Virus record (IMG/VR): IMGVR_UViG_3300044956_000373
Location: 1 to 64,000 of that record
DNA: 64,000 nt
Origin: a virus
Strand: one strand, 5' to 3'
Part shown: piece after piece, positions 1 through 54,608 of the stretch
How the letters are laid out: every line of letters starts with the position of its first letter
Numbering within the stretch: the stretch's first letter is position 1
Notes under the pieces: model-generated
The model's input: only the letters and a program-made list of their open reading frames with translations
What the model was told of the DNA's origin: nothing
Database searches by the model: none
Translations under genes and position numbers: made by a program

Positions 1-110
1 TTATAATGCTAACACTGGTGTTGTGACTTTTACAACAAACTCTGGAAATACATTCAACGTGTCTGGATTCACAACCGGATATACTGATGTTTTCTTAACA
101 GGTGGTACAT
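1..110 (+). repeat. 110-bp perfect direct repeat, copy 1
   Basis: Bases 1-110 are identical to 1309-1418, both in the same reading frame of the fibre gene. The copies diverge immediately after base 110/1418. The repeat may extend upstream of the window. Exact identity at third codon positions indicates recent duplication or gene conversion. Confidence 0.95.
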
Positions 111-2677
111 TCACAGGAGGTAACTTAACATTGACTAATACTGATGGTTCATCCGTACTTGTAACAGGGTTTACGTCAATCGACACTTATGTAACTGGAG
201 GTACTTACGATAATAACACAGGTGACGCAACATTCTTCAACAATCAAGGAGGATCTTTTGTTGTGACAGGATTTACAACAGTATCAACAGATTACTTTAC
301 AACAGGTTTAACTTTTAATAATAGTACTTATGACCTTACGGTCGAAGTAAATGATGGTAACAACTATACGGTTAACTTGGGTATCTTAGCTAGCGACATT
401 ACAATTACAGGTGGTACATATAACCCAAATAATGGTGTTATAACTTTTGTAAACAACACTGGAGGTACCTTTAATGTAAGTGGTTTGACTCAAGGTTACT
501 TCGATAATTACGTTGTTTCAGGTACTTACAATCCATCAACAGGAATTATTACATTACAAAGACAGAATGGTAGTGTAAACATCACAGGTATTGCTGAAGC
601 TGTAATTCAAAAAGCCCTCGGAGTAGGTTCTTCACACAGAATTGGAAATAGTAATGACGCAAATGGTATTGGATCTTCAGTTTTAGGTGGATATTCTAAT
701 ACCGCTCAAGGTAATTGTTCGTCAATTGGTGGCGGATCATTTAACTACGCTAATCTTGCATCATTCGTTGGTGGTGGTTATGCAAATAGTGCAACAAACA
801 CGGCAGACACAATTGGTGGTGGTATTTATAACAGAACCACAAATTACGCCACAGTCGTTAATGGTGGATGGGGAAATACCGCAAATGGGTATGGATCAAT
901 TGTCAATGGTGGTTATTATAATACAACTCTTAATCAATACGCGGCAGTTGGTAATGGATATTTTAATACCGCATCAGGAGCTCAGTCGTTTGTAGTTGGG
1001 AACAACAATAGAGTTTCTGGTATTAACTCATCAGTTTTAGGTGGTCAAAATATTTTTGGAACCGCAAATAACACAGCTTACGTCCCACAACTAAATATTG
1101 GTACACTACCTTTAAATCCTTCGATAAATACATTAGGTATTGATGCCAACGGTTTTGTTGTTGCGGCACCTGGATCAACAGATTATTTCTTAACAGGTTT
1201 AACTTGGAATCCAAGTACATTCGATTTAACTGCAGAAGTTAATGATGGAAATAATTATACGGTAAATTTAGGAATACTTTCGAGTGACATGACCGTAACC
1301 GGTGGTACTTATAATGCTAACACTGGTGTTGTGACTTTTACAACAAACTCTGGAAATACATTCAACGTGTCTGGATTCACAACCGGATATACTGATGTTT
1401 TCTTAACAGGTGGTACATACAATAACTCAAATGGTGAAATCACATTAACAAACACTGACGGATCAACAGTTGTAGTAACAGGATTAACTTTTTGTTGTAT
1501 AACTGGTGGTACTTTTGATTATACGGCAAACACATTAACTTTAGGTTCTATTGGTGGTCAAGTAGTAATTCCTGGTTTACAAGATAATTTCTTATCGGCA
1601 GTCACTTATGATAACCAATCAGGACTTCTAACTTTGACAATGGATAATCTGTCTTCATTTGTTGCCGGTCCTTTTGTTACCGTAGATTCTTTTGTAACGG
1701 GTGGTTCATATTCTAATGGAGTTTTAACTATTGGTCAAAATGGTAATGGTCAAACAATTACAATACCTGGTTTCCCAACTGACGATTACTACGTAACTGG
1801 AGGTACTTATAACTCAAACTCAGGACTACTAATATTAGAAAGAAACGGTAATGGTAACGCAACCATTCCAATTGGAACATTTGGCAGTGTCATGATCGCT
1901 GGAAATGGATTCAATTCAACTTTAAGGAGTGGATCATCCAACGTATCCAACGGAGCATGTTCTTTTGTTGTTGGTACGTTTAATACCGCCGCTTCAGGTG
2001 CCGCAACCTCTTCTATACTAGGTGGTCAATCTAACCAAGTGGTTGGTAGTTTTTCAAGTATTGTTAACGGATTTGGTAACTACATCAACGTAAACGGTCA
2101 AAATAATTTAATCGGTGCTGGAACTTTGAACTGTATGACATCAACAGCAACCAATTCATTTATTGGTGGTGGTTGTCTAAACACAATAAGTTCACAATTT
2201 TCTTTTATTGGTTCTGGATCAGGAAACATTTCCGATGGAGCAGGTAATAACGTTATATCAGGAGGTAGATTAAATAGAACTTTCGCAGGATTCCAAGGAC
2301 AATCAATTTTAGGTGGACTTTTAAATACCACTTGTGCTAACTTCACATCTGTTGTGGGTGGTACAAATAACATATCAAAAAATTGTTATGGATTTATTGG
2401 TGGTGGTTGTGCAAATACTATTAGTAGTGTATATTCTTCTGTGTTGGGTGGTCAACAAAACATAATTACAGGTGATTTCTCAAGTGCTAATGGTAGGTTG
2501 AATGTTGTTACTTGTGTTTGTTCTCACGTAATTGGAAATAGTATTACTACAGATAGAACTAATACAACATTTGTTAATAACTTATCAATTAAGAGTATTC
2601 CTGACGAAACGTCACTTCCTTTACCACTAGGTTCTGTTTATAAGTGTTCAGTAAATGGTCAGTTATATATCGTATAA
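2..2677 (+). CDS. Adhesin-like tail fibre protein, 5' end outside window
   Basis: A long appendage protein, probably a host-recognition tail fibre. The frame is open from base 2, so the true start lies upstream; the first in-window GTG at 23 is not the start. About 890 residues are visible. It alternates two repeat types. One is a beta repeat of roughly 30-40 residues with the core TGGTYNxxTGxxTFxNNxG, ending FxVTGF (about nt 2-590 and 1160-1880). The other is a short repeat of the type SxIGGGxxNxAxG (about nt 620-1060 and 1920-2560), which resembles the YadA/Hep_Hag head of trimeric autotransporter adhesins. The segment YVPQLNIGTL, then LGIDANGFVV, recurs in the next gene. The C-terminus is short and polar. 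No chaperone or peptidase tail domain is seen. Trimeric beta-helical folding is inferred from the YadA-type repeats. It is followed by a hairpin and a second fibre gene. Confidence 0.8.
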   Translation, partial: YNANTGVVTFTTNSGNTFNVSGFTTGYTDVFLTGGTFTGGNLTLTNTDGSSVLVTGFTSIDTYVTGGTYDNNTGDATFFNNQGGSFVVTGFTTVSTDYFTTGLTFNNSTYDLTVEVNDGNNYTVNLGILASDITITGGTYNPNNGVITFVNNTGGTFNVSGLTQGYFDNYVVSGTYNPSTGIITLQRQNGSVNITGIAEAVIQKALGVGSSHRIGNSNDANGIGSSVLGGYSNTAQGNCSSIGGGSFNYANLASFVGGGYANSATNTADTIGGGIYNRTTNYATVVNGGWGNTANGYGSIVNGGYYNTTLNQYAAVGNGYFNTASGAQSFVVGNNNRVSGINSSVLGGQNIFGTANNTAYVPQLNIGTLPLNPSINTLGIDANGFVVAAPGSTDYFLTGLTWNPSTFDLTAEVNDGNNYTVNLGILSSDMTVTGGTYNANTGVVTFTTNSGNTFNVSGFTTGYTDVFLTGGTYNNSNGEITLTNTDGSTVVVTGLTFCCITGGTFDYTANTLTLGSIGGQVVIPGLQDNFLSAVTYDNQSGLLTLTMDNLSSFVAGPFVTVDSFVTGGSYSNGVLTIGQNGNGQTITIPGFPTDDYYVTGGTYNSNSGLLILERNGNGNATIPIGTFGSVMIAGNGFNSTLRSGSSNVSNGACSFVVGTFNTAASGAATSSILGGQSNQVVGSFSSIVNGFGNYINVNGQNNLIGAGTLNCMTSTATNSFIGGGCLNTISSQFSFIGSGSGNISDGAGNNVISGGRLNRTFAGFQGQSILGGLLNTTCANFTSVVGGTNNISKNCYGFIGGGCANTISSVYSSVLGGQQNIITGDFSSANGRLNVVTCVCSHVIGNSITTDRTNTTFVNNLSIKSIPDETSLPLPLGSVYKCSVNGQLYIV
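1309..1418 (+). repeat. 110-bp perfect direct repeat, copy 2
   Basis: Second copy of the repeat at 1-110. It encodes the beta-repeat segment beginning YNANTGVVTF and ending DVFLTGGT. Confidence 0.95.
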
Positions 2678-2736: not shown

Positions 2737-4359
2737 ATGGCAGAAATTATAATCATAGATCCTGCTGGTGGTTCGTCATCAACGCTAAGATGTGGATTAC
2801 AAAATACCGCAAGTGCTCCATGTTCAACAGTAAGTGGTGGAAATTGTAATACTTCTTCAGGTAATAATTCAACAATTGCAGGTGGGTTTAGTAACACGAC
2901 ATCAAATTGTTGTAGTACAATTGCTGGTGGTTCTCTAAACTTTGCGGGTGCTGAATATTCATTTATTGGTGGTGGTAGAGCCAACACAACTGATGACTCT
3001 TATGGTGTCATCATGGGGGGTGATAATAACTTTGCGGGATGTGAATGTTCTGTTGTCGGTGGTGGTCAATTTAACTCATCAATTTATGAATTTTCAACAA
3101 TACTTGGGGGACTAAATAACAATTCAAACGCATCATACGGATCAATTTTAGGTGGATGTAATAATACAATATTAGGATCCTTTTCATCGGTTGTTGGTGG
3201 TGATAATAATATTGCATTTTCAGATAGCACAATAATAGGCGGTGGGGCTTGTAACCAAAGTTATTCAACTTATGGAACCATAGGTGGTGGATCAAATAAC
3301 AAAATATATTTAGACGGAGCATCAATTGCTGGAGGTCAAAATAATACCGCAGTACAATACAACTCAAGTATTGGGGGTGGTTTTGGAAATACGGTTGTTG
3401 GTGGTTGTTCATTTGCCGTTGGTAATTTGAATATTGTTTCAGGAGTTACATCTTTTGTGTTATCTAATAACTCAACATTAAACGCTAATAACTCAGTAAT
3501 TTTGGGTGGTTCAGCGATAGTTGGGTCATCTGACGATACGGTATATGTTCCACAATTAAACATTTCAACTTTAAGTACGGGAACAACAATAAATAATTTA
3601 GGGATTGATTCTAATGGTTTTGTTGTTGTTGGAACTGACGTGACTGGACTAACACAATCATTAAGTGATGTTATCACCGTTGGCCCAAATACAGGTGGTG
3701 ATATAATTATGACAAACACAACCAGTATTTTCTCTGAAAATGGTCAAGGGTTCATTCAAGTTAATGATTCAGGGTTAGACTCCACAATCGTTTTACGAAC
3801 AACAGAAAGTGGAGACACCGTAGATAGTATTTACGAACAACAAAATAGTCTAATCGAATTACATGTAAGAGATCATTCAGTTAATCAAAGTTCCGTTCAA
3901 TTATCAACTAAAGTAGTTAAATTAACAACAATTGATAGTGCTTTAAGAACAACTGGAACAACAGATACTGGAGTTGTGATTAACGAATACAAATACAACA
4001 CCTCAACTTTATTAACTTCTGACGCAACACTTAGTGAAATAATTAAAATCGAAAACTTTTCAGGTGAATTGGTTGGTGGTGTTACCAATGTAAAAGTTTG
4101 GTGTAATGCTTTCGATACCGCAACATCTTCATTGGGATTATCACAAGAATTTACATCGGCATATTTGGTTGACGGATCCTCAATTCTTACTGAATTATCT
4201 ATATCGGGCCCCACAATTAATTTGAATTACTCGACGTTTCCTCCTTCTGTCACCGCAAATCTAACTTATACAACTTTCCCTGGTAGCGTAATCTTACAAG
4301 TGACAGGATTACCATCTGCGGATGTTTTTTGGAAATGTAGGGCTAGATGGTCTCAATAG
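2737..4359 (+). CDS. Second adhesin-like tail fibre protein with YadA-head-like repeats
   Basis: A 540-residue appendage protein. Residues 1-250 are about 17 short repeats of the type SxIxGGxxNxxxxxY, which resemble the trimeric YadA head. A linker follows with YVPQLNISTL and LGIDSNGFVVV, which is clearly paralogous to the first fibre at nt 1080-1155. The C-terminal 230 residues are beta-rich and unlike the first fibre. The ATG at 2737 sits inside the string TATTTATGG, as it does in the next gene. A strong terminator follows at 4381. This may be the distal part of the same fibre or an alternative receptor-binding protein. Fibre function is inferred from the repeats and the position among appendage genes. 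Confidence 0.75.
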   Translation: MAEIIIIDPAGGSSSTLRCGLQNTASAPCSTVSGGNCNTSSGNNSTIAGGFSNTTSNCCSTIAGGSLNFAGAEYSFIGGGRANTTDDSYGVIMGGDNNFAGCECSVVGGGQFNSSIYEFSTILGGLNNNSNASYGSILGGCNNTILGSFSSVVGGDNNIAFSDSTIIGGGACNQSYSTYGTIGGGSNNKIYLDGASIAGGQNNTAVQYNSSIGGGFGNTVVGGCSFAVGNLNIVSGVTSFVLSNNSTLNANNSVILGGSAIVGSSDDTVYVPQLNISTLSTGTTINNLGIDSNGFVVVGTDVTGLTQSLSDVITVGPNTGGDIIMTNTTSIFSENGQGFIQVNDSGLDSTIVLRTTESGDTVDSIYEQQNSLIELHVRDHSVNQSSVQLSTKVVKLTTIDSALRTTGTTDTGVVINEYKYNTSTLLTSDATLSEIIKIENFSGELVGGVTNVKVWCNAFDTATSSLGLSQEFTSAYLVDGSSILTELSISGPTINLNYSTFPPSVTANLTYTTFPGSVILQVTGLPSADVFWKCRARWSQ

Positions 4360-4445: not shown

Positions 4446-5354
4446 ATGGTTAAAAGAAACTACACTCCTGAGGAACTTGTTAAATATAAAGAAAACAATC
4501 CTAACATTTCTAATTTTGAAAATAAAACATTATTAATCCATTTGGATTCATTTTGTTTGGGAGATACAATTTGTTTTTCATCTTTTTTGGATTCATTTGT
4601 TGAATATCATAATCCTAAATTTTGTTATGTCACAACTTTTTTCCCTCACTTATTGGAATCAACAAATCCAAAATATAAGTTTGTTGGTGCAACCGAAGAA
4701 GTATTTTTAGAAATTGACAAATTAATCAACGTTGGGTATGATAAAGATAACACATTCCAAACTATAAATGGAATGTCATATGCAGCTAAAGACACTTTAT
4801 TTTTACCACCGAATATACAAATTGGTAGACCTCCTGTGATAAAAAAAGAAAGGAATGTAAAACATAATAAAATTACAATCGCTCCTGAATCTTTAAAAAA
4901 AATTGCAACTTGGCAAAAAGAAAAGTGGCAACAAGTTGTTGATAAAATTGTAATGTCAAATTTTAAAGTTTATAATGTTTCATACGAAAATACTTTGGAG
5001 TTAGAAAATGTTATTGGTATTCATGGTAATGATGATATTAACGTTTCGTTGAGTCACATTTTAGAGTCTAGAGTTTTTATTGGTCTATCATCAGGTTTGT
5101 CTTGGTTGGCTTGGGCTTATGATGTGCCTGTGGTTATGATTGCAAACTTTACTAAAGTTCAAAATGAATTCGATTGTTTTAGAGTTTGGACTCCATATGT
5201 TTGTCATGGATGTTTTAACACATATAATAATATATCAAGTAGTTGTCCATTATTTATGGGTACTAATAGAGAAAATGAGTGTCATAGAGTAATAACTTCT
5301 GAAATGGTTATTGACAAAGTTAATCAAGCGCTTTCATTTACAAAAAACATATAA
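4446..5354 (+). CDS. BAHT-type (TibC/Aah-like) O-heptosyltransferase
   Basis: A 302-residue GT-B glycosyltransferase related to the bacterial autotransporter heptosyltransferases (TibC, Aah), which add heptose to Ser residues of AIDA-I/TibA-type adhesins. The N-terminal motif LIHLDSFCLGDTI (about residues 29-41) fits the donor-side Rossmann strand and LGDT signature. The C-terminal half has SGLSWLAWAYDVPVVMIANF and then NEFDCFRV. A four-cysteine cluster follows: C253, C256, C267 and C279 in CHGC-x10-C-x11-C, matching the iron-binding 'finger' of this family. It sits directly after two adhesin-like fibre genes and 16 bp before another GT9-like gene. Fibre glycosylation is therefore the natural inference. 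The sugar donor and acceptor cannot be read from sequence. Cytoplasmic. Confidence 0.82.
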   Translation: MVKRNYTPEELVKYKENNPNISNFENKTLLIHLDSFCLGDTICFSSFLDSFVEYHNPKFCYVTTFFPHLLESTNPKYKFVGATEEVFLEIDKLINVGYDKDNTFQTINGMSYAAKDTLFLPPNIQIGRPPVIKKERNVKHNKITIAPESLKKIATWQKEKWQQVVDKIVMSNFKVYNVSYENTLELENVIGIHGNDDINVSLSHILESRVFIGLSSGLSWLAWAYDVPVVMIANFTKVQNEFDCFRVWTPYVCHGCFNTYNNISSSCPLFMGTNRENECHRVITSEMVIDKVNQALSFTKNI

Positions 5355-5370
5355 CTTATAAATTATAATT

Positions 5371-6255
5371 ATGGAAAAAAAATATAGTATATTTCATTTA
5401 GAAGGTGGTTTAGGTAAGCATGTTGCAGCCACCTCAGTTGCTCAATGTATTAAAAATAATCACCCCGATCGTGAACTAATTGTTGTTTGCGGTTATCCTG
5501 AAATTTTTATAAATTTAGATTTTGTTGATCGGGTTTATCGAATAGGTATGACACCATATTTTTATAATGATTATATTGATGGTAAGGATAGTTTGATTTT
5601 TAAACATGAACCATATTTTACAACAGATCACATCCATAAACGATTGCATTTAATTATTAATTGGTGTAATCTATTTGGTTTAAAATATAACAACGAAGAA
5701 CCAATCTTAAAATTTAATAAAAGACAATTAGAAATTGCCCAACAAAAATGGGTTAGAGAAAGACCCGTTATGGTTATTCAAACAAACGGTGGCTCTTTAA
5801 CTGAACAACCTTTTCCTCATTCATGGACAAGGGATATGCCCCGAGATATTGCACAATCAATGGTAAATGCGTTTATGCCCTATTTCAACATAATTCAAAT
5901 TTGTAGAAATCAATCTAACATTTTAGAAAATGTTGAGGCGGTTACTGATGAACTATCTAATATGGAATTGTTTTCATTACTATTGGTTTCACAAAAAAGA
6001 TTGTTAATTGATTCATGTTTACAACATGCATCAGCCGCTTTAAAATTACCTTCTACGGTTTTATGGGTAGGGACTTCACCAACTATTTTTGGATATAATT
6101 TACACAATAACATTATTGCAGATTTGGGTAATAATATTAAATTACCTGATTCATACTTGTTTGATTATAATTTTAATGGTGTTACCCATGAGTGTCCAAT
6201 ATTTGACAAACCAATTTTCGATATTAATATAATCGCTGAGGTACTAAGAAAGTAA
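5371..6255 (+). CDS. GT-B (GT9-like) glycosyltransferase
   Basis: A 294-residue protein with a heptosyltransferase/GT9-like outline. The N-terminal FHLEGGLGKHVAAT (about residues 8-21) is a Rossmann start with a glycine-rich loop. A central strand MVIQTNGG (131-138) and a C-terminal segment LLIDSCLQHASAALKLPSTV follow, where GT9 enzymes place the donor-binding D..xxHxAAAL motif. It lacks the four-cysteine cluster of the preceding gene. It lies 16 bp downstream of that gene, so the two are probably co-transcribed and may work on the same acceptor, for example extending a first sugar on a fibre. The donor is unknown. A different GT-B family cannot be excluded. Confidence 0.65.
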   Translation: MEKKYSIFHLEGGLGKHVAATSVAQCIKNNHPDRELIVVCGYPEIFINLDFVDRVYRIGMTPYFYNDYIDGKDSLIFKHEPYFTTDHIHKRLHLIINWCNLFGLKYNNEEPILKFNKRQLEIAQQKWVRERPVMVIQTNGGSLTEQPFPHSWTRDMPRDIAQSMVNAFMPYFNIIQICRNQSNILENVEAVTDELSNMELFSLLLVSQKRLLIDSCLQHASAALKLPSTVLWVGTSPTIFGYNLHNNIIADLGNNIKLPDSYLFDYNFNGVTHECPIFDKPIFDINIIAEVLRK

Positions 6256-6291: not shown

Positions 6292-6588
6292 ATGATAGAT
6301 AATAATATTATATTAAGTAGTAACCATTATAATGGTCAGTTAACCAATCTTTTATTCAAACATGACAACGATGACATTACAATAAACTTTGGTGTTGTTA
6401 CCTTACCATTTCTTTTAAAACCTTACTTGTTAATGCCACCACGAGTGGTATACGAGACTTATACGTTTTTAACTTTTGATCCAACTTGTAATAATGTCTT
6501 ACAAGTACCTATACCAACTACATCTCCAACACCAACAAAAACGGTTACACCAATCCCTATACCATCATTTAATCCTTGTTTGGTATGA
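6292..6588 (+). CDS. Small appendage protein with Pro/Thr-rich tail
   Basis: A 98-residue protein. Residues 1-70 form a compact unknown domain, and residues 70-95 are a Pro/Thr linker (PIPTTSPTPTKT). It then stops at TGA overlapping the next ATG as ATGA. In other proteins here (sheath, 11668 gene) such linkers join two folded domains. The next reading frame starts with exactly the kind of Cys-containing domain that would follow. A single-base deletion near 6585 that split one gene of about 194 residues is therefore as plausible as two coupled genes. Function unknown; position suggests a virion appendage. Confidence 0.55.
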   Translation: MIDNNIILSSNHYNGQLTNLLFKHDNDDITINFGVVTLPFLLKPYLLMPPRVVYETYTFLTFDPTCNNVLQVPIPTTSPTPTKTVTPIPIPSFNPCLV

Positions 6589-6878
6589 ATGTCTTTAGTC
6601 TGATATCTTTATCAGGTTCATCACCTTACAACATTTATGTTTGTGATATAACCAACACATATTGTTTTTTGGTTTCAGGTTCAACATCAATCCCACCTTT
6701 AATATCTTTTGTGGTACCACCACCTTTAGATATAGTAAATGAAATTTTATTAAAAATTGTTGATGATAACGGATGTGAAAAATATTATTATTATAGTTGT
6801 GACGACCAACCAATTAAACAATTTCAAGACTTAAGCACTTTTAATTTTATGGATGGTGAAATTTACCAATTTGAATAA
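6585..6878 (+). CDS. Small Cys-containing protein, coupled to or split from the previous gene
   Basis: A 97-residue protein starting at ATG 6585, which overlaps the previous stop as ATGA; an upstream in-frame TTG at 6576 is less likely. It has paired cysteines in YVCDITNTYCF and in GCEKYYYYSC, and a proline stretch in the middle. No family recognised. It could be the C-terminal domain of the previous gene after a one-base deletion: restoring one base would turn the overlap into a Trp codon and give a continuous protein. Confidence 0.5.
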   Translation: MNVFSLISLSGSSPYNIYVCDITNTYCFLVSGSTSIPPLISFVVPPPLDIVNEILLKIVDDNGCEKYYYYSCDDQPIKQFQDLSTFNFMDGEIYQFE

Positions 6879-6883
6879 AGTTA

Positions 6884-6891
6884 TATTTATA
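6884..6891 (+). promoter_or_regulatory. TATTTATA upstream element
   Basis: TATTTATA in coding orientation, 11 nt before the ATG at 6903. Confidence 0.5.
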
Positions 6892-6902
6892 TAATAAAAC
6901 AA

Positions 6903-7445
6903 ATGGCAACTTTAACTAGTAGAACTTTAGCTACAGGTATTACGTCAACCGACTTAATACATATCGTTATACCAGATGATACTAGTCAAAGTCCTGAAGG
7001 TTCGTCATATAAAGCAACTATCGGTCAGGTTTTAGAATTAGTTTTACTAAGTGGTGATACTTACGTAACAGGAGGAACATATGACAATAATACTGGAATC
7101 GCAACTTTTACGAACAATAAAGGTGTAGAATTTGATGTAACGGGATTTTATACTGAAAAAAAATATACCACTTCAGGTATAACAACATCAAGTGCAACAT
7201 TAGATATAAATTACACTTATTATGGTGTTAACTATGATGGTAATGTTAACTTAACTCTACCTGATGCGACCGGTTTAGATGGGAATTTTTTAATAATTAA
7301 AGATGAGGGGGGTAATAGTGGAACTTATGGTATAAGACTACTATCTTCATTAAATTTAATAGATGGTAGTTCTTATGTTGACATGAATACAAATTTTATG
7401 TCTTTAACAATAATTGCCAGAAACAATAATTGGTGGATAATATAA
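6903..7445 (+). CDS. Short fibre/appendage protein sharing the TGGTY beta repeat
   Basis: A 180-residue protein. Residues 1-50 are a distinct N-terminal segment, probably for attachment. Residues 55-85 are one copy of the beta repeat seen in the large fibre (YVTGGTYDNNTGIATF, then FDVTGF). Residues 90-180 form a C-terminal beta domain ending in NNNWWII. The repeat shows modular exchange between appendage genes. It is followed 7 bp later by the disrupted gene at 7453. Role in the virion is inferred; no enzymatic motif seen. Confidence 0.6.
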   Translation: MATLTSRTLATGITSTDLIHIVIPDDTSQSPEGSSYKATIGQVLELVLLSGDTYVTGGTYDNNTGIATFTNNKGVEFDVTGFYTEKKYTTSGITTSSATLDINYTYYGVNYDGNVNLTLPDATGLDGNFLIIKDEGGNSGTYGIRLLSSLNLIDGSSYVDMNTNFMSLTIIARNNNWWII

Positions 7446-8719: not shown

Positions 8720-9967
8720 ATGAATACAATATTCGTTCAAATAGCGTCTTACAGAGACCCTCAACTTATCCCAACAATTAAAAACATGTTGGAAATGGCG
8801 AAAAACCCCGAAAATTTGGTTTTATCAATTGCCAGACAATTTCATCCTGAAGATGGTTTTGATGATTTATCAGAGTATGAAAATGACTCAAGATTTAAAA
8901 TTATTAACATAGTTTATAAAGAATCAAAAGGTGTGTGTTGGGCAAGACATTTGACACAACAACAATATGATGGTGAAGAATACACCCTTCAAATAGATTC
9001 TCATATGAGATTTGAAAAGAATTGGGATGAGGAAATGATCTCTATGATTAAACAACTTCAAGATAAAGGTTATAAAAAACCATTATTGACAGGTTATGTT
9101 TCATCATATGATCCTGAAAACGATCCCGAAGGTAGAGTATTAGATCCTTGGCGTATGACATTTGATCGTTTTACTCCCGAAGGCGTTGTTTTCTTTTTAC
9201 CTGAAGTTATACCTGGATGGAAAGAAATGACAGAACCTATCCCTGCAAGATTCTACTCCGCACATTATTGTTTTACTTTGGGTGAGTTTTCAAAGGAAGT
9301 ACAACATGATCCTGAGTTTTACTTCCATGGAGAAGAGATTTCAATTACGGTAAGATCATACACACATGGTTACGATTTATTTCATCCGTACAAAGTTTTA
9401 ATTTGGCATGAATACACAAGAAAAGGTCGTGTAAAGCAGTGGGATGATGATAAAGAATGGTTTAAAAAAAACGAAGATTGTCATGTTAAAAACCGACAAC
9501 TTTTGGGTATTGATGGTGAAGCGTTTAATGGAGATATGTCAAAGTATTTTGGAAACGTTAGAACCATTAAAGATTATGAAAAATATGCCGGAATATTATT
9601 TTCTAAACGAGCGGTTCAACAATATACCATAGATAAAAATTACCCACCAAACCCTTATGAATTCAATAATGAAAATGAATGGGAGGATAGTTTTATGTCA
9701 ATATTCAAACATTGCATTGACTTAGATTTAAATCGAGTTCCTGAAACAGATTATGATTTTTGGGTAGTTGCATTTCATAACTCGAAAGACGAAACTCTTT
9801 TTAGACATGATGCCGATGTAAATGAAATAAACAGATTAAAGACTGATCCTAATGGTGTTGTTAAAATATGGAGACAATTTAATACTTCAGAAAAACCTAA
9901 GTATTGGGTTGTTTGGCCCTATTCAAAATCAAAGGGATGGTGTGATAGAATTATTGGGGGACTATAA
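8720..9967 (+). CDS. GlcNAc-transferase-like (Skp1-type) glycosyltransferase
   Basis: A 415-residue GT-A enzyme of the family that includes eukaryotic Skp1 GlcNAc-transferase and many bacterial and phage enzymes. The N-terminus IFVQIASYRDPQLIPTI is the family's opening strand and loop. YTLQIDSHMRF (about residues 89-99) carries the DxH metal/nucleotide-sugar motif. FYSAHYCFTLGEF and DPEFYFHGEEISITVR are the acceptor-side and catalytic segments. The last 110 residues (from MSIFKHCIDLDL) are a small extra domain of unknown role. It is followed 2 bp later by another glycosyltransferase, so the two are co-expressed. The target may be fibre protein or another phage or host glycan. Confidence 0.75.
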   Translation: MNTIFVQIASYRDPQLIPTIKNMLEMAKNPENLVLSIARQFHPEDGFDDLSEYENDSRFKIINIVYKESKGVCWARHLTQQQYDGEEYTLQIDSHMRFEKNWDEEMISMIKQLQDKGYKKPLLTGYVSSYDPENDPEGRVLDPWRMTFDRFTPEGVVFFLPEVIPGWKEMTEPIPARFYSAHYCFTLGEFSKEVQHDPEFYFHGEEISITVRSYTHGYDLFHPYKVLIWHEYTRKGRVKQWDDDKEWFKKNEDCHVKNRQLLGIDGEAFNGDMSKYFGNVRTIKDYEKYAGILFSKRAVQQYTIDKNYPPNPYEFNNENEWEDSFMSIFKHCIDLDLNRVPETDYDFWVVAFHNSKDETLFRHDADVNEINRLKTDPNGVVKIWRQFNTSEKPKYWVVWPYSKSKGWCDRIIGGL

Positions 9968-9969
9968 AA

Positions 9970-11640
9970 ATGGTAAAGACAACTTTAGTAACTGGTCTGT
10001 GGGATATTGGTCGAGGAAATTTATCTGAAGGTTGGTCTCGTTCTTTTGATTATTATTTAAAAAAATTCGATGAACTACTCAAGATCGATTGTAATTTAAT
10101 AATTTTTGGTGATAAACAATTAGAGTCTTTTGTTAAAAAAAGAAGATCCGATTCAAATACTCAATTTATAGTTAGAGATATTGATTGGTTTAAAAATGGT
10201 GAATTTTACGAACAAATTCAAGAAATAAGAACTAATCCAAATTGGTATAATTTGGCAAGTTGGTTGTCAGACTCAACACAAGCTAAATTAGAATTGTATA
10301 ATCCTTTAGTTATGTCTAAAATGTATTTGTTGAACGATGCAAGAATTTTAGATAAATTTGTTTCTGAAAAATTATATTGGATTGACGCTGGTTTGGCAAA
10401 TACCGTAAATATGGGTTATTTTACTCACGATAATATATTAGAAAAAGTAGACCAATTCGAAAATTTTACTTTCATATGTTTTCCGTATCATGCAAATAAT
10501 GAAATACATGGATTCGAATATTCAAAAATGAACGAATATGCAAACGCCAAAGTAGATAAAGTTGCAAGAGGTGGATTTTTTGGTGGCCCTAAACACATGA
10601 TAGAACCTTTAAATACGAGTTACTATAACTTGATGGGTGATACACTATCTAAAGGATTAATGGGTACTGAAGAAAGTTTATTTACTATTTTATTATATAA
10701 TCATCCATACATGATTGATTATTTTGAAATTAATTCTGATGGTCTTTTATATACATTTTTCGTAAATTTAAAAAACAATAATGTCGAGATTAAAAATACC
10801 ACAAAAAAAAGAACTATAAAAAAATCTTCAAAAGGAAAAGTTGGGTTATATGTTATAACATTTAATAGCCCAAAGCAATTCGAGACATTAGTCAATACGA
10901 TGTATGATTACGACTCTAATTTTTTAGAAAAAACTGAAAAATTTTTATTAAACAATTCAACTGATTTATCCACCACAGAGGAATATCAAAAATTTTGTGA
11001 TCAATATGGTTTTACTCACATTAAAAAAGATAATCTTGGAATCACTGGTGGTCGTGTTTTTATTGCGGACCATTTTGATAAAACAGATTTAGAGTATTAC
11101 ATGTTTTTTGAAGATGATATGTTATTCTACAACAGAAAAGAAGGTACATGTAAAAATGGTTTTAACCGATATGTACCAAATTTATATAACAAAATTTTAG
11201 AAATCATGAAAAAAGAAAACTTTGATTTTTTAAAATTTAATTATACAGAATTTTTTGGTAGTCATGAAAAACAATGGTCTTGGTACAATGTACCACAAAG
11301 TATCAGAGAAAAACGTTGGCCTAACAACTCACATTTACCAACACATGGACAAGACTCAAATAGTCCAAATTTAGAATTTATAAATATAAAATCATTAAAT
11401 GGGGTTCCATACGCAAATGGCGAAATCTATCTTTCTAATTGGCCAATTATAATGTCAAAAGAAGGTAATTTCAAGTGTTATTTAGAAACAAAGTTTACTC
11501 ATCCGTATGAGCAAACTCTAATGTCTTATTGTTATCAACAAACTATCAAAGGTAGAATCAATTCATCAGTGTTACTAATGACACCAACAGAACACAATAG
11601 ATTTGATTTTTATAAGTCCGAAGAGAGAAAAGAATGTTAA
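9970..11640 (+). CDS. Two-domain glycosyltransferase (HtrL/YibB-like plus GT-A)
   Basis: A 556-residue protein. Residues 1-270 resemble the HtrL/YibB/WlaTC family: VTGLWDIGRG at the start, KMYLLNDARI and LYWIDAGLAN in the middle, RGGFFGGP near 200. Residues 280-556 form a second GT-A-like domain: KVGLYVITFNSPKQFETLV, then MFFEDDMLFYN with a DDM metal motif at about residue 382. The C-terminus has WPIIMSKEGNF and a His-rich end typical of acceptor loops. It overlaps nothing and follows the previous glycosyltransferase by 2 bp. The fusion suggests sequential addition of two sugars. Cytoplasmic. Acceptor unknown. Confidence 0.68.
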   Translation: MVKTTLVTGLWDIGRGNLSEGWSRSFDYYLKKFDELLKIDCNLIIFGDKQLESFVKKRRSDSNTQFIVRDIDWFKNGEFYEQIQEIRTNPNWYNLASWLSDSTQAKLELYNPLVMSKMYLLNDARILDKFVSEKLYWIDAGLANTVNMGYFTHDNILEKVDQFENFTFICFPYHANNEIHGFEYSKMNEYANAKVDKVARGGFFGGPKHMIEPLNTSYYNLMGDTLSKGLMGTEESLFTILLYNHPYMIDYFEINSDGLLYTFFVNLKNNNVEIKNTTKKRTIKKSSKGKVGLYVITFNSPKQFETLVNTMYDYDSNFLEKTEKFLLNNSTDLSTTEEYQKFCDQYGFTHIKKDNLGITGGRVFIADHFDKTDLEYYMFFEDDMLFYNRKEGTCKNGFNRYVPNLYNKILEIMKKENFDFLKFNYTEFFGSHEKQWSWYNVPQSIREKRWPNNSHLPTHGQDSNSPNLEFINIKSLNGVPYANGEIYLSNWPIIMSKEGNFKCYLETKFTHPYEQTLMSYCYQQTIKGRINSSVLLMTPTEHNRFDFYKSEERKEC

Positions 11641-52748: not shown

Positions 52749-54608
52749 ATGAACATTTCGCAAAGAATATTAAGTGATATTACGGTTTACATGAAATATG
52801 CTAAGTTTCTTCCCGAAAAAAACAGACGGGAGACGTGGGAAGAATTGGTGACAAGAAACAAAAAAATGCATCAAAAGAAGTACCCACAAATCAAAAACGA
52901 GATTGAAGAAGTTTATAAAATGGTATATGATAAAAAAATCCTACCATCTATGAGATCATTACAATTTGGTGGAAAACCAATCGAGATTTCACCAAACAGA
53001 GTTTACAACTGTGCTTACATGCCAATCGATCACCCTGACTCGTTTTCAGAAACAATGTTCTTGTTGTTAGGAGGAACCGGAGTTGGGTTTTCAGTTCAAA
53101 AACATCACGTAGAAAAACTTCCTGAAATTAAAAAACCTAATTCAAGTAGAACAAGAAGATACTTGATTGGTGATAGTATCGAAGGATGGTCCGACGCCAT
53201 TAAAGTTTTAATCGAATCATACTTAGGTGTTAAATCATCAACTCCAGTATTTGATTTTTCTGATATTCGTCAAAAAGGAGCGTTGTTGGTCACTTCAGGT
53301 GGAAAAGCGCCAGGACCACAACCATTGAAAGATTGTATTCATAACATCACAAAAGTATTTGAAAACAAAGTTGACGGTGAAAAACTTTCACCTATTGAAA
53401 CCCATGATATCGTTTGTCATATTGCAGATGCAGTATTGGCAGGTGGTATTCGTAGAGCGGCTTTAATTTCATTATTTTCTGCAGATGATGATGAAATGAT
53501 CTCTTGTAAATCTGGAAGTTGGTGGGAACAAAATCCACAAAGAGGTAGAGCTAACAACTCAGCGGTACTACTTCGTCACAAAGTAACCAAAGAATACTTT
53601 ATAAATCTTTGGAAAAGAATTGAGTTGTCAGGAGCAGGAGAACCTGGAATATATTTGTCAAACGACAAAGATTGGGGAACAAACCCATGTTGTGAGATCG
53701 GTCTTCGACCTTATCAGTTCTGTAACTTATGTGAGGTAAATGCCTCTGATATCGAATCTCAAGAAGATTTTGAAAAAAGAGTCAGAGGGGCAGCATTTAT
53801 TGGAACACTTCAAGCGGGGTACACTGACTTTCATTACCTTCGTGATGTTTGGAAAAGAACCACCGAAAAAGACGCTCTTATTGGGGTTGGTATGACAGGT
53901 ATTGGTTCAGGTGTTGTTTTAAGTTATGACATAAAAGCCGCAGCAATCACAGTAAAAGAAGAGAATGAAAGAGTGGCAAACCTTATTGGAATTAACAAGG
54001 CCGCAAGAACAACAACTGTTAAACCGTCAGGAACATCATCTTTGGTTTTGGGCACATCTTCAGGTATTCACGCTTGGCATAATGATTTCTATTTAAGAAG
54101 AATTCGTGTAGGTAAAAACGAAGCAATTTATTCTTACTTAGCAATTAATCACCCTGAGTTGGTGGAAGATGAATTTTTTAGACCTCACGATACTGCGGTA
54201 ATTACAATTCCACAAAAATCTCCTGAAGGTTCTATTCTTCGTCATGAATCAGTATCCCAAATGTTGGAGCGTGTTAAGAAAGTATCTCAAGAGTGGATTA
54301 AATTTGGACACAGAGGAGGACAAAATTCACACAACGTATCAGCGACAGTTTCAATCAAAGAAGATGAGTGGGACTTGGTGGGTGATTGGATGTGGAACAA
54401 TAGAAAATTTTATAATGGACTTTCAGTTCTTCCTTATAATGGTGGAACATACACTCAAGCACCTTTTGAAGATTGTACAGAAGAAGATTTTAATCGTTTG
54501 ATTAAAACTTTAACTGATGTTGATTTAACAAAAGTAATTGAGTTACAAGATAATACCAACTTAAGTGGTGAATTGGCTTGTGCAAACGGATCTTGCGAAA
54601 TTACTTAA
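52749..54608 (+). CDS. Class II (cobalamin-dependent) ribonucleotide reductase
   Basis: A 619-residue ribonucleoside-triphosphate reductase of the monomeric RTPR type, which makes dNTPs using adenosylcobalamin. The N-terminus ILSDITVYMKYAKFLPE lacks an ATP cone. PSMRSLQFGG and YNCAYMPID hold the first active-site Cys. LLLGGTGVGFSVQ is the specificity/substrate loop. NPCCEIGLRPYQFCNLCEVN contains the thiyl-radical Cys and partner residues. The C-terminal CANGSC is the shuttling Cys pair. It is shorter than Lactobacillus RTPR (739). It has its own terminator. Oxygen-independent activity suits hosts or niches where class I enzymes are limiting, and requires host cobalamin. Confidence 0.88.
   Translation: MNISQRILSDITVYMKYAKFLPEKNRRETWEELVTRNKKMHQKKYPQIKNEIEEVYKMVYDKKILPSMRSLQFGGKPIEISPNRVYNCAYMPIDHPDSFSETMFLLLGGTGVGFSVQKHHVEKLPEIKKPNSSRTRRYLIGDSIEGWSDAIKVLIESYLGVKSSTPVFDFSDIRQKGALLVTSGGKAPGPQPLKDCIHNITKVFENKVDGEKLSPIETHDIVCHIADAVLAGGIRRAALISLFSADDDEMISCKSGSWWEQNPQRGRANNSAVLLRHKVTKEYFINLWKRIELSGAGEPGIYLSNDKDWGTNPCCEIGLRPYQFCNLCEVNASDIESQEDFEKRVRGAAFIGTLQAGYTDFHYLRDVWKRTTEKDALIGVGMTGIGSGVVLSYDIKAAAITVKEENERVANLIGINKAARTTTVKPSGTSSLVLGTSSGIHAWHNDFYLRRIRVGKNEAIYSYLAINHPELVEDEFFRPHDTAVITIPQKSPEGSILRHESVSQMLERVKKVSQEWIKFGHRGGQNSHNVSATVSIKEDEWDLVGDWMWNNRKFYNGLSVLPYNGGTYTQAPFEDCTEEDFNRLIKTLTDVDLTKVIELQDNTNLSGELACANGSCEIT

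Follow-up and report, generated by a model that had tools for sequence, protein, structure and literature searches.

The stretch of DNA analysed here, referred to as the window, comprises bases 1–64000 of a 69,887-base IMG/VR virus record that is itself a fragment. The record belongs to a contractile-tail freshwater phage. Besides a ribonucleotide reductase (RNR), it encodes a tail sheath, a baseplate hub and wedge, a DNA polymerase and a terminase/helicase-like gene, which bears out that the glycosyltransferase gene considered below is phage-borne. The RNR (window 52749–54608) has at least 599 viral relatives, and the 80 of these that were listed are 80–94% identical to it and lie on contigs of up to 380 kb, pointing to an abundant lineage of large phages.

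At the start of the window, two genes for repeat fibres directly precede a gene for a glycosyltransferase of the BAHT/TibC type, which is followed by a second GT9-like gene and, further downstream, by two genes that serve as markers of the flank (Table 1). The GlcNAc-transferase-like and HtrL-like markers are 71–78% and 65–68% identical, respectively, to their counterparts in related phages. Near the former, which is conserved in the lineage, proteins are encoded whose Thr/Pro-rich stretches could be O-glycosylation sites.

Table 1. Genes and sequence features of the fibre and glycosyltransferase locus (window coordinates)
Feature	Position	Strand	Remarks
Repeat fibre gene 1, proposed acceptor	2..2677	+	Frame open from base 2; 5′ end cut by contig start
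Repeat fibre gene 2, 540 aa, proposed acceptor	2737..4359	+	15-residue repeats; weak Pfam match LbR_Ice_bind, E 0.001
TibC/BAHT-like GT-B glycosyltransferase, clade A, 302 aa, without N-terminal beta-barrel	4446..5354	+	TIGR04414; TibC by sequence and structure
Asp40 codon, counterpart of TibC catalytic base Asp110	4563..4565	+	Invariant in 98 sequences; role from PMC4358343
ESLKKIATW (residues 148–156), altered donor-phosphate loop	4887..4913	+	Thr226 replaced by Leu150, Lys230 by Ala154
Four-cysteine finger Cys253/256/267/279	5202..5282	+	Counterpart of TibC Cys339/342/358/370; first loop 5 residues shorter
Second GT9-like glycosyltransferase	5371..6255	+	Weak Glyco_transf_9 / heptsyl_trn_I
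GlcNAc-transferase-like protein	8720..9967	+	PF11397, E 2e-69; phrog_24687, E 6e-163; flanking marker
HtrL/YibB-like protein with weak TAGT-like glycosyltransferase part	9970..11640	+	PF09612, E 1.6e-14; flanking marker

Both fibre-like genes carry the same 15-residue repeat, S-[ST]-[IV]-x-GG-x-x-N-T. Pairs of GGxxN at a spacing of 15 residues occur seven times in fibre 1 and 12 times in fibre 2, whereas no single one of 2000 shuffles gave more than one such pair. Fibre 1 additionally contains a 113-nt repeat (bases 1–113 and 1309–1421, 99% identical); the contig starts inside this repeat, and it is probably here that the assembly broke. In fibre 2, residues 20–260 or so are predicted to form a beta-solenoid, with a pLDDT of about 90 over residues 60–220 and a poorly predicted C-terminal half. 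The nearest solved folds to this repeat are an antifreeze beta-helix (3p4g, Z 15.9), the autotransporter Vag8 (Z 14.5) and Ag43 (Z 12.2), even though Z values between repeat folds may reflect merely a common arrangement. The YadA head is not among the fold matches listed for fibre 2, and a Foldseek search with the whole fibre model returned no match at E 0.001. The preliminary description, which correctly placed the two fibre genes directly upstream of the enzyme gene, also held that their repeats imitate adhesin heads; given a 15-mer with a predicted beta-solenoid fold and these neighbours, that wording is loose.

The open reading frame of the BAHT-like gene is real and starts with ATG. All sequence features previously ascribed to the 302-residue protein are present, namely LGDT (residues 38–41), SGLSWLAWA (216–224), VPVVMI (227–232) and the cysteine cluster Cys253-HG-Cys256-x10-Cys267-x11-Cys279. 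Its best match in both NCBIfam and the PDB is the BAHT/TibC family: the profile TIGR04414 (hepto_Aah_TibC) is matched at E 4.8e-33 and 114.6 bits over positions 79–373 of 374, and TibC is the sole PDB match both of the protein itself (phmmer, E 5e-14) and of a profile built from 21 phage relatives (E 4e-27). An AlphaFold2 model built from 21 phage sequences (pLDDT 85.8) likewise has TibC as its closest fold (Z 25.2, rmsd 2.9 Å over 288 aligned residues), followed by other GT9 enzymes at Z 17.6–19.8, the runner-up being 3tov (Z 19.8). Together with four cysteines that are invariant in 98 relatives, the profile score and the exclusive PDB match mean that the family likeness is not due to chance. 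The score nevertheless misses the 200-bit equivalog cut-off of TIGR04414, the protein is shorter than TibC (302 versus 406 residues) and Pfam does not find the N-terminal domain of TibC (PF21129, TibC_1st) in it, in keeping with a TIGR04414 match that begins only at profile position 79. All this is best explained by a soluble GT-B glycosyltransferase that derives from the BAHT/TibC family.

A scan of viral contigs with the window protein alone recovered no relative; using an alignment instead, at least 304 viral contigs were found to encode relatives, 80 of which were kept. These fall into two sets, the first of which (clade A) contains the window protein and consists of stand-alone proteins, 46–65% identical and devoid of the barrel. 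Clade A forms one group in the tree (support 100/100) on a long stem branch of 2.27 changes per column, and on these sequence grounds is a divergent sub-family of BAHT/TibC. ‘Clade B’ is a working label rather than one group, given that the bacterial BAHTs fall inside it in the tree. Most of its members are the end parts of larger proteins that also contain GT4 domains and, in some cases, methyltransferase domains. Those tested pass the TIGR04414 cut-off, with 224–318 bits in one set and 284–293 bits in another. An isolated phage is represented here as well: in Microcystis phage Mel-JY01, a gene annotated as ‘methyltransferase FkbM’ (L002:4747-8430) ends in a BAHT domain that scores 318 bits, over the cut-off, and lies directly behind collagen-like fibre genes. 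As for a bacterial source of clade A, one scan of genome contigs yielded no bacterial relative above 30% identity to the window protein. The earlier proposal that a phage took over an adhesin-plus-modifier pair thus finds little backing, as the closest bacterial relatives found are just 30% identical and no donor of such a pair came to light.

How much of the TibC active site has been retained can be judged from an alignment of 98 sequences (21 from clade A, 45 from clade B and 32 bacterial). In TibC, Asp110 is the catalytic base, Thr226, Lys230, Arg286 and Trp305 contact the donor, Cys339/342/358/370 form an iron finger and residues 1–97 form an N-terminal barrel (Yao et al. 2014, PMC4358343). 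Asp110, Trp305 (here Trp220) and the four finger cysteines are invariant across all 98 sequences. The remaining donor contacts, by contrast, follow the clades: Lys230, invariant in clade B (45 sequences) and among the bacterial proteins (32), is missing from all 21 clade A sequences, as is Thr226 from 20 of them, while Arg286 (Ser201 in the window protein) is found in 31/32 bacterial, 5/45 clade B and 0/21 clade A proteins. Instead of Lys230, clade A has an invariant Glu148 and Lys151. At the position of TibC Pro300 the window protein carries Ser215, the same residue as in AAH, where it governs stereoselectivity (PMC4358343). The donor site of clade A has thus been rebuilt, and its sequence does not reveal which sugar is used. 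Of the earlier designation ‘BAHT heptosyltransferase’, the family homology therefore stands and a standard BAHT does not, since the score is below the cut-off, the N-terminal domain of TibC is not matched and Thr226, Lys230 and Arg286 are all replaced. These same departures leave heptose unassured, and its chances of being the transferred sugar are about even.

The surroundings of the enzyme genes bear on the acceptor. With fibre classes assigned by simple patterns, and in loci that come from related, non-independent phages, a 15-mer-repeat fibre was found in the examined flank of 18 of the 21 distinct clade A loci, and a collagen-like (GTSGTS) fibre lay near the enzyme gene in 32 of 43 distinct clade B loci, several of the remainder being short. 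Two of the three clade A exceptions have less than 1.6 kb of upstream sequence, and in the third, L009, a protein rich in Gly, Ser, Thr and Asn takes the place of the fibre. Neither fibre type occurs in any of 25 distinct control loci (at least 14 kb each) around the RNR gene. On seven large contigs, two to six genes separate the BAHT gene from the closest repeat fibre (combined p 5e-4, for phages that are not independent and with the gene index of one contig, G010, set by hand, the ORF caller having chosen the wrong strand); per contig, 2–19% of genes are as near to a repeat fibre, so that adjacency is just moderately rare.

A sharper picture emerges within the window's own lineage, recognised by RNRs that are 80–94% identical. 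The window and G007 (RNR 90%) combine a 15-mer fibre with a clade A enzyme, while G063 (RNR 94%, DNA polymerase 93%), G064 (RNR 91%) and G072 (RNR 89%) combine a collagen-like fibre with a clade B enzyme. In the window, G007, G063 and G064 the fibre and BAHT genes sit beside the same GlcNAc-transferase-like and HtrL-like genes, near the DNA polymerase; the piece of G072 that was read does not extend to these flanks. Other members differ: G066 has a clade B gene at the contig end, where the fibre on that side is not visible, and a 15-mer fibre further off; G068 (213,924 bases, RNR 89%) and the shorter contigs G070 and G076 have no BAHT match and neither fibre type; and G075 (380,343 bases, RNR 81%) has no BAHT match and one weak 15-mer fibre. 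Fibre type and BAHT type hence change together among relatives with 89–94% RNR identity, in an observation that covers few phages and pattern-based fibre classes. Such linked change fits, at the level of gene content, a joint exchange of the enzyme with its fibre, and it is this joint change within one phage lineage that makes the fibre the likely acceptor.

Fibre loci are recombination hot spots, and the BAHT-like gene could be a passenger in one of them, functionally unlinked to the fibres. Co-inheritance by descent inflates the synteny counts in a way that would suit such a passenger, and the phylogenetic contrasts for the sulfotransferase link described below could not reach significance. 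Yet fibre class and enzyme clade switch together between the same flanks in phages 89–94% identical in RNR, and two distant BAHT clades have different fibre partners, which makes a mere passenger distinctly improbable.

Fibre modification by the enzyme, in turn, may involve additional partners. Clade A cassettes commonly include a GT8 gene (PF01501, E 2e-25) upstream and, downstream, the second GT9, a sulfotransferase (PF13469, E 1.4e-19), an APS kinase (PF01583, E 2.9e-19) and an NMNAT-like nucleotidyltransferase; neither sulfotransferase nor GT8 was found in the window's own 69,887-base record. L009 has two sulfotransferase genes (6432–7250 and 9816–10637; 54 and 79% identical to the reference), which flank its GT8-BAHT-GT9 block. 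Viral relatives of the sulfotransferase number at least 524, and 42 distinct loci around them (at least 14 kb each; L220–L299) contain a 15-mer fibre in 35 cases and the second GT9, the gene most often found with sulfotransferase and 15-mer fibre in other phages, in 37, often along with APS kinase. Loci anchored on GT9 have the fibre less frequently (18/39). Sulfotransferase loci without any BAHT still keep the 15-mer fibre in 23 of 28 cases, which suggests that a broader set of fibre-modifying genes may exist to which the BAHT is an accessory. Among clade B loci, the 15-mer fibre is present in 4/7 with and 0/36 without a sulfotransferase (Fisher p 2.8e-4), a link that was not significant by sign test on three tree-independent contrasts inside this clade. 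A cytidylyltransferase-like neighbour was considered as an ATP sulfurylase and rejected, as profiles favour an NMN adenylyltransferase; the sulfate-activation route is thus incomplete.

Seen from gene content, sulfotransferase, GT9 and APS kinase beside a 15-mer fibre possibly represent a widespread fibre-sulfation module, and the addition of GT8, a second GT9, sulfotransferase and APS kinase to the cassettes makes a sulfated glycan conceivable. Our most far-reaching proposal, which we put forward tentatively, is that large freshwater phages possess exchangeable cassettes of a fibre and its modifiers. In these, a beta-solenoid fibre would receive a sulfated glycan made by a TibC-derived glycosyltransferase together with a second GT9 and, in many relatives, a sulfotransferase with APS kinase.

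The main rival on the acceptor is that the enzyme and its neighbours decorate the infected cell's LPS or capsule against superinfection. GT9 and GT8 are classical families of LPS enzymes, glycosyltransferases frequently lie in variable cargo regions, and a role of this kind at the host surface has been proposed for jumbo-phage glycosyltransferase clusters (Iyer et al. 2021, PMC7824862). Those clusters resemble the present loci in that several glycosyltransferases are grouped in large phages, and a HIGH-type nucleotidyltransferase is found in related cassettes; complete clusters, however, include sugar-synthesis genes, and no NDP-sugar-making suite was seen among the window proteins scanned. 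Moreover, BAHTs act on proteins (PMC4358343), the cysteine finger that contacts the protein substrate in TibC is kept in 98/98 sequences and the enzyme clade changes with the fibre type. Modification of the host surface hence appears unlikely.

What speaks for fibre glycosylation is the sum of homology, predicted fold, the retained catalytic Asp and cysteine finger, the adjacency to repeat fibres and the linked change of enzyme and fibre. We consider it fairly probable that the TibC-derived enzyme glycosylates the neighbouring fibre. The earlier suggestion that the phage glycosylates its own fibre accordingly holds as far as the fibre is the likely acceptor, with about even odds for heptose as the sugar. 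The enzyme would act in the cytoplasm and attach a sugar to Ser, perhaps also to Thr, in the upstream 15-residue-repeat fibres, before or during tail assembly, with its cysteine finger reading the fibre beta-solenoid as the TibC finger reads TibA. Partner enzymes—the second GT9 and, in relatives, GT8, sulfotransferase and APS kinase—may extend or sulfate the glycan, and the resulting coat might influence how stable the fibre is, how it binds its receptor or how it is shielded.

The family donor is ADP-heptose, and with its phosphate loop rebuilt and the adenine contact gone the site could accept another NDP-sugar. That the family fold was reused in phages for a fibre glycosyltransferase with such a different donor is a variant of fibre glycosylation that we regard as quite possible. 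The replacement of Thr226, Lys230 and Arg286 in all or nearly all clade A proteins, the new invariant Glu148 and Lys151 and the long stem branch argue for it, set against the retained Trp305, the AAH-like Ser215, the chance that Lys151 took over the role of Lys230 and a full-length HldE-like ADP-heptose synthase in the 197-kb clade A contig G010 (L086:5432-6952), about 64 kb from the BAHT gene. GmhA, over its cut-off, is encoded about 27 kb from the BAHT gene in the 636-kb phage LR756504 (L087:9084-9653), where an FBPase-like open reading frame was also noticed by eye near the BAHT gene (L004:7483-8505). Heptose synthesis as a general BAHT companion was rejected, being rare: in 66 BAHT records there was one GmhA match and one full-length HldE, and the other rfaE_dom_II matches were short frames of 140–152 aa.

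Set beside known systems, the window enzyme shares with TibC and AAH (TIGR04414; PDB 4rap, 4rb4) the GT-B fold, the catalytic Asp, Trp305, the four-cysteine finger, the SGLSWLAW motif and a gene position next to a repetitive protein predicted as a beta-solenoid. It differs in lacking the N-terminal beta-barrel (a contributor to the dodecamer interface of TibC), in its replaced donor contacts, shorter first finger loop and sub-cut-off score, and in being phage-borne with a fibre instead of an autotransporter as its neighbour. Clade B phage enzymes (Mel-JY01, LR756501, G063) are likewise phage-encoded, mostly beside fibre genes, and have the same Asp, Trp and finger; unlike the window protein, they mostly constitute the C-terminal part of multidomain proteins of 600–1500 aa, keep Lys230 and accompany collagen-like fibres. 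Phage enzymes that glycosylate their own virion, as proposed for the window phage, are known from mycobacteriophages according to PMC12363180 (Che8 gp110, Corndog gp38 and Myrna; Freeman et al. 2023, cited therein), the targets there being capsid and tail tube rather than fibres. Within a literature search of partial coverage, no report was found of a phage heptosyltransferase or BAHT with tail-fibre glycosylation, nor of a phage sulfotransferase with glycosyltransferase and fibre, or of fibre sulfation.

Taken at the level of sequence, the findings suggest that phages coat their own fibres with sugar. If true, phages would dress their receptor-binding fibres by means of their own enzymes, with one enzyme type per fibre type—offering simple enzyme–substrate pairs for study. 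Fibre glycosylation is directly testable, as the isolated phage Mel-JY01 has a BAHT domain over the family cut-off. It would change the reading of fibre binding, stability and recognition, and would extend the BAHT family outside bacterial autotransporters.
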